A stretch of DNA of 64,000 nucleotides, taken from assembly GCA_016218085.1 (NCBI GenBank), contig JACREY010000003.1:62001-126000 (forward strand). The letters run 5' to 3'. Made by a program: the position numbers and the translations under genes. Shown here in pieces: positions 49,001 to 54,736 of the stretch. Every line of letters starts with the position of its first letter. The first letter of the stretch is position 1. The DNA is from Ignavibacteriota bacterium (GTDB lineage: Bacteria; Bacteroidota; Ignavibacteria; Tepidaquicellales; Tepidaquicellaceae). A model generated the notes under the pieces. That model made no database searches and was not told the origin of the DNA. It worked only from the letters and a program-made list of their open reading frames with translations.

Positions 49001-50260
49001 TTAAAAAAATAACAGCCATAAAATAAAATAAAACGGAAGTAAAATTAAAAATGAATAATACATATATTCGACAAAGTTGGGTATTTTCACTCTTCTTATC
49101 TTATGTTCCGCAATTGATTTGGCCATAAAATTCGGTCCGTTTCCAATGTAAGTCATCGCGCCGAAAAAAACAGACGACACCGATATCGCAGTAATAAACT
49201 GTTCTCCCGACAAAGTGAATCTTCCGACATCAGAAGCTGAGTTAATATCGAGTCCCTGATTAGCCATTGCCATTGCAAGGAAGTTTAAATAAGCAGGAGC
49301 ATTATCGAGAAAACTTGTAAGCAATCCGCAGCCCCAGTAAAAACCATCTACGCTGGTCAGACCCAGTGATTTTGCATGTCCCGAGAGATAGGAAATAGCA
49401 GGAACCATAGTTATGAAAATTCCTATAAACAGGATTGCTACTTCCTTTATCGGTTCAAGATTAAAATTATTTGTTTTGTAAATATTCTTCGGAGTAATTT
49501 TATAAGAAAGCAATACTGCAAGAAGCATAACGGCTTCCCTTAAAAAAAGTGGTTTTGTGATAAAAACAGCCCCGATAATGATTCCAAGAGGAATTATATT
49601 TTGAAATCCTCCATATTGTATTTCCTCCCCTTTTTCTTCGACTTCTTCCTGCATTTTCAAACTTGCCTTTTTAAAATTATTTCTATCTAAAAAATAAAAC
49701 AAAATAAGCAGGTATATATTTACCAACAACCAGAAAGGGAGCATATGGCTTGTAATCCAGAAAAAGGGAATACCTTTTATATAGCCCAGAAATAAGGGTG
49801 GATCACCAATAGGAAGCAGCGATCCGCCAACGTTGCAGACAATAAATATAAAAAATATAAGGTGAAAAGGCCTGAAGTGATATTCATTCGAACTTAAATA
49901 AGGACGGATTAGGAGCATTGCAGCACCTGTCGTTCCGAATAAATTTGCTATAACTGCCCCAGTTGCCAGCAGGGCAACGTTTTTCAAAGGGGATGCCTTG
50001 CCTTTTATTTTAAAGCTTATACCGCCGGAAACAACAAATAGGCTGAACAGCAAAGTTATAAAGCTAACATACTCCTCTATTGAATGTAGAACATCGCTGA
50101 ATTTTCCTGAAAACAGATAATAGAGAAAAACAGCAACGGCCAGTATAACCGAAACATAAGGATAGTTTTTATGCCACCACTTTTCATTTATAAACGGCAT
50201 TAATGCTATCGACAACAGCAGCAGCACGAACGGAAATATTAAAATAAGTTCGGTTGACAT
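49001..50260 (-). CDS. NhaD/ArsB-superfamily ion transporter, probable Na+/H+ antiporter
   Basis: A 419-residue membrane protein with about 11-12 helices of the ion-transporter superfamily. It shows the ATGAVIANLFGTTGAAMLLIRP pattern around residues 95-118 and the closing FGAMTYIGNGPNFMAKSIAE near 375, features shared with NhaD-type sodium/proton antiporters and citrate/arsenite-type carriers. Substrate is inferred, not shown. It lies downstream of nuoM, separated by a terminator, on the same strand. A short polar loop with acidic residues (MQEEVEEKGEEI) sits in the middle. Confidence 0.8.
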   Translation of the reverse strand: MSTELILIFPFVLLLLSIALMPFINEKWWHKNYPYVSVILAVAVFLYYLFSGKFSDVLHSIEEYVSFITLLFSLFVVSGGISFKIKGKASPLKNVALLATGAVIANLFGTTGAAMLLIRPYLSSNEYHFRPFHLIFFIFIVCNVGGSLLPIGDPPLFLGYIKGIPFFWITSHMLPFWLLVNIYLLILFYFLDRNNFKKASLKMQEEVEEKGEEIQYGGFQNIIPLGIIIGAVFITKPLFLREAVMLLAVLLSYKITPKNIYKTNNFNLEPIKEVAILFIGIFITMVPAISYLSGHAKSLGLTSVDGFYWGCGLLTSFLDNAPAYLNFLAMAMANQGLDINSASDVGRFTLSGEQFITAISVSSVFFGAMTYIGNGPNFMAKSIAEHKIRRVKIPNFVEYMYYSFLILLPFYFILWLLFF

Positions 50261-50287
50261 ATTTAATTATTTTTACGTTATATAGAA

Positions 50288-50324
50288 AAAGGTGTTTCAC
50301 TTTCATTTTAAGAGAAACACCTTT
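50288..50324 (-). terminator. Terminator of nuoM
   Basis: AAAGGTGTTTC and GAAACACCTTT form an 11-bp perfect stem with a 15-base AT-rich loop, 20 bases past the nuoM stop. On the minus strand the stem ends in TTTTT. It implies that the antiporter gene has its own promoter. Confidence 0.82.
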
Positions 50325-50344
50325 CCTGTATTTATATGAAAATT

Positions 50345-51883
50345 TTATTTCTTTTCGTTTCCCTGTGTTTCCATCAAGGTTTTAGCTTTTTCGTAGTTCA
50401 TTAAAACCTTTTTAACGCTGCTTTCAGATAACTTCAGGAACGTATTCGGCTGAACTCCTATCCAGACAATAAAAAACAAAACAGGAAGCATGTATGACAT
50501 TTCAAATTTGCTTATATCCTTAACAGCTTTATTCTCTTCTTTTTCGAGCGGTCCCAGCATTACACGCTGATAAAGCCAGAGAAGATATACAGCTGAAAAT
50601 ATCACTGCTGTCGATGAGAGTATTGTATACAGGCTGCTGTGCAGGTTTTGCGAATTATAAGATCCAATCAGGATTAGAAACTCACCGATAAAACCGTTAA
50701 GTCCGGGTAAACCGATTGACGACAAACTGACAATCAGGAATACAACTGAAAAGACAGGCATTACTTTCATCAATCCTCCGAACTGTGCAATTTCTTTTGT
50801 ATGCCTTCTTTCATATATCATACCAACGATAAGGAAGAGGGCTCCGGTCGATAAACCGTGATTTATCATCTGAATCACGCTTCCCTGCATTGCCTCCTGA
50901 GTAAGGGCAAAAGTGCCAAGCACAATAAAGCCAAGATGGCTTACGGAGGAATATGCAATAAGCTTTTTCATATCTTTCTGAACTATTGAAAGCAGTGCAC
51001 CGTAAATTATTCCAATTACAGCAAGCACAGCCACATAAGGCGTCAGTTTTATAAAAGCAGAGGGGAACAATGAAAGGGAAAATCTTATAAGACCGTATGT
51101 ACCCATCTTAAGAAGTAAAGCGGCCAGAATCACACTTCCCGCCGTTGGAGCCTGAACGTGCGCATCCGGCAGCCAGGTATGAAAAGGAAAAAGAGGTACT
51201 TTAATCAGAAATCCGAGTGAAAAAAGAATAAATAAATAAATCTGCTTATCAAGCGGCAGGTAAACGGAAAAAGTCATTATCCGCGGAATCTCCATAGTAA
51301 TAATTCCTGAAATGGCCTGAACCTGGAATGCAAGCCAGATTATCCCTACAAGCAGAAGAACGCTGCCAAACATAGTGAATATGAAGAACTTGACAGTAGC
51401 ATAAATTCTGTTTTCCGAACCCCATATACCAATCATAAAATACATCGGTATCAATATAAACTCCCAGAATACATAAAATAAAATCATATCCAGAGCCGCA
51501 AAAACTCCGATAAGCGAACCTTCTAGCAAAAGCATCAGGAAATAAAATTCTTTTTGCCTGAACTTAATCGTATTCCAGGAAGCCAGAATGCTTATCGGCA
51601 TTATGAATGTTGTAAGCAGAATTAGTAATAATGATATTCCGTCTATTCCAACGTAGTAATAAGAATTTACTGAAGGAATCCAGACGGTTTTTTCCACAAA
51701 CTGGAAATCCTGCAATTCTGTATTAAAAGTAAAATATAAAACCAGCGAAAGTATAAAAACCGCTAGAGATACAAACAGGGTATATGATTTAATTTGCTTT
51801 TCCCATTCTTTTTTAAAAAATAAAAGAGGTATTGAAAAAAGTACAGGAATAAATATCAATATGCTTAATATATGCTGCTGCAA
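50345..51883 (-). CDS. nuoM: NADH-quinone oxidoreductase subunit M-like proton channel protein
   Basis: A 512-residue membrane protein with about 14 helices, of the complex I antiporter-like family. Key charged residues are in place: Glu141 (FWEFILIPMYF), Lys228 (FLIKVPLFPFHTWLPDAH) and Lys259 (LLLKMGTYGL). Length and the LPDAHVQAPTAGSVILA segment are typical of NuoM. However, the genes usually on either side (nuoL, nuoN) are absent: the neighbours are an NhaD-like transporter and an NAD-binding protein. It may be a scattered complex I gene or a separate respiratory/antiport module. Confidence 0.92.
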   Translation of the reverse strand: MQQHILSILIFIPVLFSIPLLFFKKEWEKQIKSYTLFVSLAVFILSLVLYFTFNTELQDFQFVEKTVWIPSVNSYYYVGIDGISLLLILLTTFIMPISILASWNTIKFRQKEFYFLMLLLEGSLIGVFAALDMILFYVFWEFILIPMYFMIGIWGSENRIYATVKFFIFTMFGSVLLLVGIIWLAFQVQAISGIITMEIPRIMTFSVYLPLDKQIYLFILFSLGFLIKVPLFPFHTWLPDAHVQAPTAGSVILAALLLKMGTYGLIRFSLSLFPSAFIKLTPYVAVLAVIGIIYGALLSIVQKDMKKLIAYSSVSHLGFIVLGTFALTQEAMQGSVIQMINHGLSTGALFLIVGMIYERRHTKEIAQFGGLMKVMPVFSVVFLIVSLSSIGLPGLNGFIGEFLILIGSYNSQNLHSSLYTILSSTAVIFSAVYLLWLYQRVMLGPLEKEENKAVKDISKFEMSYMLPVLFFIVWIGVQPNTFLKLSESSVKKVLMNYEKAKTLMETQGNEKK

Positions 51884-51906
51884 TTCCGAATATTTTTATT
51901 AATAAA

Positions 51907-53604
51907 TTAACCTTTCATTCTTAAGCCTTTTTCCTCGTTAATAAATATCCATCCGACCACTTTCCCGATATTTATGTCCTTGAAATTATCCCAGTAATCG
52001 GCATTGAATACATATCTCGAACTGTAGGTATCATCATAAAGTCTTTCTGTATCCTTTATAATGTTGACAAATCTTTCTTTCCAAAGTTTCCAGTTGCCCT
52101 GTCTCAGGTCAAACCATCCGTCTGTAGCCCATTTATCAATTTTACTTTTCGTAATATTAATTAATTCACCTTCTGCTTTTGACGGTATTATCACCAGAGG
52201 TCCCCTGATTAATTCTCTACCATTGGGTAATAATATCGGAACACCAATTGAAACTAATTCATTCCTTAATTTCGGATTATTCTTCAGATAATTAGTAATT
52301 TTTCCGGATGCATTTGCAGGTTTATCTTTTATAAAACTGCTGAAGTTTTTGTATATTAACCTGATTAAATGAGCTTCGTATAATAGTTTCGAAAGGCGCG
52401 GAGGTCCGAGCATCTCGAAAGCTACAGAATGAGTCTTGTGCTTTTTTTCGAGTTCCTTAATTTTCTTTGCCGCAGTATGCTGGAGGAATCCCGCCCTGTA
52501 TGACGGCTCCATTGCAGAGGAATCAAGCGCGCTGATAATATCATTTCCGGTATTTCCGCCGGTCAGTTCCCTGTAAATATTTTCGGCAATTTCTTCGGGT
52601 GTTACAAATTCCATTTGTCCGTTCGTTGTAATGGCTTCAAATTCACCGCTCGAAAATATTCCGTTTTCTCCCGTATCGATATAAACCGTCTTGAAATTAC
52701 CTGTTTCCTTGTATTTTTTTTCTGCCTCTCTCGAAAATTTATCTGAGAGCTTTATAGTTTCATTAAACTTAATATCATAAAGTTTTATGGGTCTTCCGCC
52801 TTTTCTTATATCACCGTATGTGATTTTTTTCCATGCAATAGCTGCTGTAGGCTTGATTTCCTTAATTCTAGGTCCATCCGGCGTCCTTGCCATCAGGAAA
52901 AGCAGCAGAGTATGTGCTCCGGCAACAGAAGACTTGCTGAGCAGAACTCTGGAGGGCTTTTCTTCGCTGTGAGTGAAAGGAATATTCAGGCCCATTCCAC
53001 CCGTTCCGCTGGTGCCAACCTTAAAATAATATTTGGTATTTAACTTAACCATTGAATTATAAAGTATCTGCACGTGCCTGATAAGCTGCGGTACATATGA
53101 TGCACAAATTAGTTTTTCCACGCTGTTCTGAAGTGCATCGTAATTTTTTTCTTTCTTGTTTTCGGTAATCTTTAGAACATCCTGGTAAGAGCTGTATATA
53201 TTCTGATATGCAATTCCGGTTGCCGTATTTATGCAGTCAATGATTATGTCCGGTTTGAATTGTTCCAGCATTTTGTAAATGCATGATGCCTTAAGCATTT
53301 TTTCATCAAGCTCATCCACCATGTCATGGATAATCTTGTTTCTTTTTACCGGATCTTCGAGAAGTTCGTTTCTGTTTGTATCCTTGAATTCATGTCGGAC
53401 AAAAATATTTCCCCAGAATGGTTTAAAAACATTTTTCTTACCGGTTTCTTTTGCAAGTGATTTGCAAATATCTTCAGCCTCGTGCTTTAGCAAGGAAGTA
53501 AGTATAACCTGTTTGGGATTCCCTTCCAGTATTTTCCTTGCTGTTGCAGAGCCGACAAGTCCCCAACCTCCTAAAATGAGTACTTTTTTGTTTTGTATAT
53601 CCAT
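51907..53604 (-). CDS. Large NAD(P)-binding Rossmann protein of unknown function
   Basis: A 565-residue protein starting with a dinucleotide-binding motif (VLILGGWGLVGSATARKIL), as in epimerases and short-chain dehydrogenases. Further recognisable parts are DIIIDCINTATGIAYQNIY near 123-141 and KYYFKVGTSGTGGMGLNIPFTHS near 192-214. The remaining 350 residues, including KTHSVAFEMLGPPRLSKLLYEAHL near 375-398, match no family I can name. Length is well above usual SDR enzymes, so it has extra domains. Substrate unknown. It lies 23 bases upstream of nuoM and five bases downstream of the GNAT gene, in one likely operon. Confidence 0.75.
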   Translation of the reverse strand: MDIQNKKVLILGGWGLVGSATARKILEGNPKQVILTSLLKHEAEDICKSLAKETGKKNVFKPFWGNIFVRHEFKDTNRNELLEDPVKRNKIIHDMVDELDEKMLKASCIYKMLEQFKPDIIIDCINTATGIAYQNIYSSYQDVLKITENKKEKNYDALQNSVEKLICASYVPQLIRHVQILYNSMVKLNTKYYFKVGTSGTGGMGLNIPFTHSEEKPSRVLLSKSSVAGAHTLLLFLMARTPDGPRIKEIKPTAAIAWKKITYGDIRKGGRPIKLYDIKFNETIKLSDKFSREAEKKYKETGNFKTVYIDTGENGIFSSGEFEAITTNGQMEFVTPEEIAENIYRELTGGNTGNDIISALDSSAMEPSYRAGFLQHTAAKKIKELEKKHKTHSVAFEMLGPPRLSKLLYEAHLIRLIYKNFSSFIKDKPANASGKITNYLKNNPKLRNELVSIGVPILLPNGRELIRGPLVIIPSKAEGELINITKSKIDKWATDGWFDLRQGNWKLWKERFVNIIKDTERLYDDTYSSRYVFNADYWDNFKDINIGKVVGWIFINEEKGLRMKG

Positions 53605-54235: not shown

Positions 54236-54736
54236 TTACATGAATAAATACGGTTTCCAGTCTTCTTCGACGTCACCTGCGAAATTTTTTATAAATGTTA
54301 TGTGCGAAGGTTTTTTTGGTTTCGAACGCAAACTCATTTTTGAGTCCTCCGGCGTCCTGTCCCCTTTTTTGTTATTACACCTTATACAGGCCGTAACCAG
54401 ATTCTCCCACGTTTCATCTCCGCCCTTCGATTTCGGTATTACATGGTCAATTGTCAGGTTTGTGGTAGAACCGCAATACTGACACTTGTGGTTGTCCCGC
54501 CTTAAAATATTTTTTCTTGATAAAATTATTTTTTTGAATGGGACTCTTACGAAGACCGATAACCGAACAATGCTCGGATATTCAAAAGACCTGTAAACAG
54601 ACCTGATTTTTTTCCCGTTCAGCTTGCTTATGATTTCTGCCTTGCCTAAATATGCAAGAACCACTGCCCGCCAGACATTACATATAGTAATCGGTTCATA
54701 GTTCTGATTCAGAACCAGAACCTTGCCGTTAAGCAG
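54236..54736 (-). CDS. HNH endonuclease domain protein, non-canonical start likely
   Basis: Small HNH nuclease of the type common in Bacteroidota, actinobacteria and cyanobacteria. Zinc cysteines (CQYCG and CIRCNNKKG) flank the catalytic TIDHVIPKSKGGDETWENL. An ATG/GTG-based call starts at GTG 54664 (142 residues), but the family-typical N-terminus KVLVLNQNYEPITICNVW is encoded in frame just upstream. A stop bounds the frame beyond 54790, and no ATG, GTG or TTG lies between. The best candidate is CTG at 54736 with AAGG six bases before, giving 166 residues. Role unknown; not part of the Cas9 locus. Confidence 0.75.
   Translation of the reverse strand: MLNGKVLVLNQNYEPITICNVWRAVVLAYLGKAEIISKLNGKKIRSVYRSFEYPSIVRLSVFVRVPFKKIILSRKNILRRDNHKCQYCGSTTNLTIDHVIPKSKGGDETWENLVTACIRCNNKKGDRTPEDSKMSLRSKPKKPSHITFIKNFAGDVEEDWKPYLFM

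Follow-up and report, generated by a model that had tools for sequence, protein, structure and literature searches.

A lone nuoM beside a predicted NhaE-like antiporter gene: probable part of a dispersed complex I in the order Tepidaquicellales (Ignavibacteria)

The nuoM gene described here very probably encodes the M subunit of a canonical complex I, the genes of which are dispersed in the order of the source genome, while its downstream antiporter partner has been kept. Three large subunits of complex I resemble antiporters and move protons; NuoM is one of them. The window (the whole stretch of 64,000 nucleotides that was analysed) corresponds to G000:C12:62001-126000, where G000 is the source assembly of 3.31 Mb in 22 contigs. 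It contains the following three features:

49001..50260, minus strand: predicted PF16980 (CitMHS_2) antiporter, NhaE-like, immediately 3' of nuoM (437.6 bits to PF16980; conserved gene context)
50345..51883, minus strand: nuoM of set 2, the scattered complex I (TIGR01972, PF00361, tree, conserved E141/K228/K259/E401)
51907..53604, minus strand: 565-aa SDR-like Rossmann protein, upstream neighbour of nuoM (fold match of the predicted structure)

These three reading frames lie at the positions given in the first-pass annotation and are co-directional on the minus strand, with gaps of 23 and 84 bases, and neither nuoL nor nuoN is found beside nuoM. The minus-strand order is HNH protein, GNAT protein, 565-aa protein, nuoM, PF16980 antiporter and S41 peptidase, with gaps of 75, 4, 23, 84 and 133 bases along the six genes. 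The gap between nuoM and the antiporter gene is 84 bases here, versus 16, 16 and 28 bases in the three order members for which it was computed. The two genes may be co-transcribed; promoter-like sites were as frequent as in shuffled sequences (20 observed versus 20.3, no excess), so the scan is uninformative on co-transcription. Terminator-like sites numbered 13, versus 4.8 in shuffles. The small HNH protein at 54236-54664 has the HNH part of IscB as its best NCBIfam match, at a score below the cut-off, and the remainder of IscB is missing.

Judged by profile and tree, the window nuoM codes for an ordinary M subunit of the respiratory NADH dehydrogenase (complex I). Its product scored 584.2 bits against TIGR01972 NDH_I_M (NCBIfam cut-off 263.8) and also matches PF00361 of Pfam. 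Among the matches listed (25 of 74 families), the best antiporter subunit D model reached 181.1 bits and TIGR01770 NuoN 154.0 bits. The narrower NuoM equivalog models gave scores below their own cut-offs, at best 553.5 of 585. The closest solved chains are complex I subunits M/ND4 (best E 3.2e-127). Residues E141, K228, K259 and E401 align with E144, K234, K265 and E407 of E. coli NuoM, which we take to be the key (essential) residues of that protein. The earlier observation that the key residues are intact holds for this choice of residues. A pseudogene was rejected on the conservation of these residues.

The phylogeny that the first-pass annotation had proposed for this copy places it with NuoM. 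In a tree of 26 hand-picked rows, the 11 NuoM rows, including those of E. coli and of the second, contiguous gene set of the source genome (set 1, see below), form a clade at 100/100 support. The window protein is nested among copies from its own family and order, apart from NuoL, NuoN and Mrp, a position consistent with vertical inheritance. The branches of the three Mrp rows are long, and their position is uncertain. They are three PF00361 proteins of one class genome (G023), labelled mrpA, mrpD and mrp3 by guess; their best models are all antiporter subunit D, and one of them is above the cut-off. An Mrp or hydrogenase origin of the window NuoM was rejected on its TIGR01972 score, which is higher than those of the Mrp models listed, and on its position in the tree. 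No Mrp subunit occurs among the seven window proteins scanned, and hence no Mrp gene set was seen around nuoM.

The source genome encodes six PF00361 proteins and has two complex I gene sets, of which set 1 is contiguous and set 2 scattered; the nuoM of the window is a member of set 2. Set 1 consists of nuoA, B, C, D, H, I, J, K, L, M and N, 11 consecutive genes on contig C4, and queries with E. coli NuoE, F and G match nothing at this run. Set 2 was found at the following seven places, none of them at a contig end:

nuoA-B-C-D-E-F: contig C14 (L019)
nuoH: contig C2 (L020)
nuoI: contig C21 at 390 kb (L130)
nuoJ: contig C3 (L131)
nuoK-L: contig C21 at 370 kb (L010)
nuoM: the window, contig C12
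nuoN: contig C21 at 85 kb (L009)

The first of the two explanations offered in the first-pass annotation, that complex I genes are scattered in this genome, is borne out by this distribution. Searches with E. coli K-12 proteins and with NCBIfam profiles together recovered 13 subunits of set 2, all but G, and NuoG gave no match within the stretches scanned. Subunits B, C, D, E, F, I, K, L and N of set 2 are above a curated NCBIfam cut-off, and H exceeds that of one among six listed NuoH models. The best families of A and J are NuoA and NuoJ, respectively, at scores below the NCBIfam cut-offs; J is above the cut-off of PF00499 in Pfam. The products of the dispersed genes would assemble into one enzyme, a canonical NADH:quinone oxidoreductase, whose proton-pumping M subunit, ND4-like and of antiporter type, would be the nuoM product. 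Ahead of the lone nuoN (L009, 7083-10455) lie two genes, one for an NAD(P)HX epimerase/dehydratase and one of the VanZ family. In intact clusters of other genomes an ORF with a similar start, as compared by eye, follows nuoN, and this likeness is possibly a further trace of the old cluster.

The class sample comprised 61 genomes including the source. Seven of them are order members: the source genome, G005 and G055 from the source family, and G016, G026, G036 and G046 from another family. The PF00361 search covered 20 of the 61 genomes and two further subunit searches 12; these three included all order members except G036, so that counts of scattering in the order refer to six genomes. The genes for D, H, I, J, L, M and N lie apart from one another in six of six. 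The nearest pair among these scattered genes is L and N of G046, with approximately 7.5 kb between the matched domains. The assembly of G016 consists of two contigs. G005 is the weakest case of scattering, since its assembly has approximately 120 contigs and its D, I, J and L lie less than 5 kb from a contig start. NuoL is encoded together with NuoK in the source genome and G055, and nuoN stands alone in the order genomes. Three strong PF00361 proteins occur in each of G055, G016, G026 and G046, joined in all but G055 by a weak fourth (69-85 bits); each of the four also has a single NuoH, NuoD and NuoJ, encoded apart from one another. The scattered set is therefore the only complex I found in these four of the six order genomes tested.

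These relatives weigh on two other explanations. No nuo gene adjoins the window nuoM, and the genome has another nuoM inside its 11-gene run, as would be expected if nuoM and the antiporter formed a separate ion-pumping module apart from complex I, comparable to those of Mrp or membrane hydrogenases. Such a module, the second explanation of the first-pass annotation, is nevertheless highly improbable: the TIGR01972 score far exceeds those of the MrpD and NuoN models listed, the protein falls within the NuoM clade, the remaining set-2 subunits except G are present in the genome, and the searches detected no further NuoH, NuoD or NuoJ in four order relatives. As findings that would speak against its own interpretation, the annotation had named a genome without another nuoM and relatives with nuoL and nuoN in similar single-gene contexts; related genomes do show lone nuoL and nuoN genes, whereas a second nuoM is present in the 11-gene run. 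That run would also allow the window nuoM to be a non-functional relic, left behind after the 11-subunit set took over. This is extremely improbable in view of the open frame, the conserved key residues, an identity of 73-74% to two members of the family, and the order relatives in which no other complex I was found. A lone nuoM need not signal a new pump; the present one very probably belongs to a complex I with dispersed genes, and the order provides a natural experiment on the importance of operon structure for assembling this enzyme.

Outside the order, J, L, M and N are clustered in six of six genomes (G051, G021, G043, G042, G023 and G032), and the antiporter gene lies between M and N in all of these except G043. 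Five of the six have a set-2 H, in each case next to I; in G021 only the H and I of set 1 were found. The nuo cluster of G023 carries an Mrp operon ahead of N. This Mrp-type antiporter operon, located between the PF16980 antiporter and nuoN (L139, G023:C20, 10066-17608), encodes MNHE, MrpF, MrpG, MbhD- and MbhE-like proteins and three PF00361 proteins. In another cluster (L137, 12358-12723) a 121-aa protein without a Pfam or NCBIfam match is encoded between the antiporter and nuoN, and ORFs of approximately 115-129 aa occupy its place in several intact clusters. As the clusters are intact in the genomes tested outside the order and broken in those inside it, the nuoM-antiporter pair is best read, from gene order, as a remnant of an ancestral cluster. 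The ancestral state would have been approximately three clusters, namely A-F, H-I (with G too in Melioribacter) and J-K-L-M-antiporter-N. These clusters would have broken up in the order, the change presumably running from clustered to scattered, to give at least seven loci in the source genome, with nuoM retaining only its downstream partner, the putative NhaE-like Na+/H+ antiporter.

The match of this protein to PF16980 is strong, that to PF03600 is much weaker (38.9 bits, cut-off 31.9), and no NCBIfam family matches. On this pattern of matches and the gene context, NhaE-like is the preferred label for the predicted antiporter. A search of solved structures with the antiporter alignment returned nothing credible (three unrelated matches, best E 0.44).

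PF16980 is above its cut-off in 38 of the 61 class genomes. The gene-order conservation that was to be checked is evident in 30 of these 38, as counted by eye, where the antiporter gene lies directly downstream of a set-2 nuoM on the same strand. Among the eight exceptions, G009 and G058 are without a nuoM of the set-2 type, G019, G039, G043 and G057 have the antiporter on a different contig from nuoM, and G031 and G049, with the antiporter near a contig start, are ambiguous. The pair is intact in all seven order members sampled, and in the source genome it is one of three groupings that survived the break-up, together with A-F and K-L.

A wider scan of contigs examined the best 80 of at least 593 relatives of the antiporter, and the following counts refer to these 80. 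A nuoM of the set-2 type is the immediate upstream neighbour in 14, all in records titled Bacteroidetes, Bacteroidia or Ignavibacteria/-riales/-riae/-riaceae. Three records gave no labelled antiporter ORF. In records of Verrucomicrobia and Cytophagia type, no set-2 nuoM was labelled beside the antiporter. The antiporter also occurs without nuoM in L189 (Melioribacteraceae), L199 (Ignavibacteriae), L188 and L204 (both titled Chlorobaculum) and several Bacteroidetes records, some such records being short contigs. In two records of Verrucomicrobia subdivision 6 (L202 and L210), the antiporter gene and an adjoining nuoB-C-D(-E-F) cluster lie on opposite strands. By these neighbour counts, the link with nuoM seems to be characteristic of one part of Bacteroidetes/Ignavibacteria rather than of the entire antiporter family.

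The predicted antiporter would swap the proton gradient of complex I for a sodium gradient. A partnership of a functional or even physical kind between it and the NuoM end of complex I in this lineage is unlikely. Under that reading complex I and sodium exchange would be coupled, which would agree with the antiport postulated for Rhodothermus marinus (see below). The persistence of the pair suggests a possible connection of complex I with sodium exchange in part of Bacteroidetes/Ignavibacteria.

The 565-aa protein encoded upstream of nuoM matches no Pfam or NCBIfam family at E 0.001 and no solved structure at E 10. Its AlphaFold2 model (mean pLDDT 78.1, pTM 0.56) resembles short-chain dehydrogenase/epimerase Rossmann folds, with a best E of 4.2e-6 and a TM-score of 0.24 by query length. 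From the lengths involved, this match would account for the Rossmann part of the modelled protein and leave a large remainder unexplained. Homologues are present in 41 of the 61 class genomes including the source, with one match each, the others at 46-72% identity. The gene adjoins nuoM in 3 of the 41, as judged by eye, and these are the three genomes of the source family. In that family the order and strand of the Rossmann, nuoM and antiporter genes are common to all three members, the first two genes being 5, 10 and 23 bases apart. This would agree with one functional unit, in which the Rossmann protein feeds or assembles complex I. With the protein present in so many genomes and adjacent to nuoM in so few, and with no match in the order's other family (four members), this is very unlikely, and the three-gene unit was rejected on the low adjacency to nuoM. 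The 565-aa protein is probably a family-level neighbour of nuoM that has a separate function and is not part of complex I.

One of the closest known systems is that of R. marinus, where Melo et al. (2005), by the title of their work, reportedly placed an nhaD Na+/H+ antiporter gene among the complex I genes. This gene is presumably that of the founding protein of NhaE. As described for R. marinus, the predicted antiporter gene is associated with complex I genes; unlike in R. marinus, the cluster is broken up in the source order and the antiporter is kept by nuoM only. The passages available from PMC9408914 propose NhaE as a family of the IT superfamily on the basis of the R. marinus antiporter. 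Na+/H+ antiport by the complex I of R. marinus is postulated in parts of two papers (PMC4607728, PMC5662883), and a closer tie between antiporter and complex I is thereby conceivable, as a proposal.

Melioribacter roseus (Ignavibacteriae) is described in passages of PMC3534657 as having an 11-subunit cluster without E/F/G and a second set in the pieces ABCDEF, JKLM..N and GHI, the split into subunits being read from locus tags. The source genome likewise has an 11-subunit cluster and a second set in pieces, but at seven or more loci compared with the three named there. These passages make no mention of an antiporter. The source order departs from this M. roseus layout.

For the archaeon Thermoproteus tenax, part of PMC3189178 gives four operons that together make up a presumably complete nuo set, NuoG being ambiguous; these are fewer pieces than in the source genome, and the part concerned does not mention a pairing with an antiporter. 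A limited literature search, with few subscription journals, found no complex I split like that of the source order, and the available part of a cyanobacterial review contains nothing on scattered ndh genes. The protein, the kind of partner and the kind of split are already known from other systems, and only the extent of the scattering goes beyond the published cases found.
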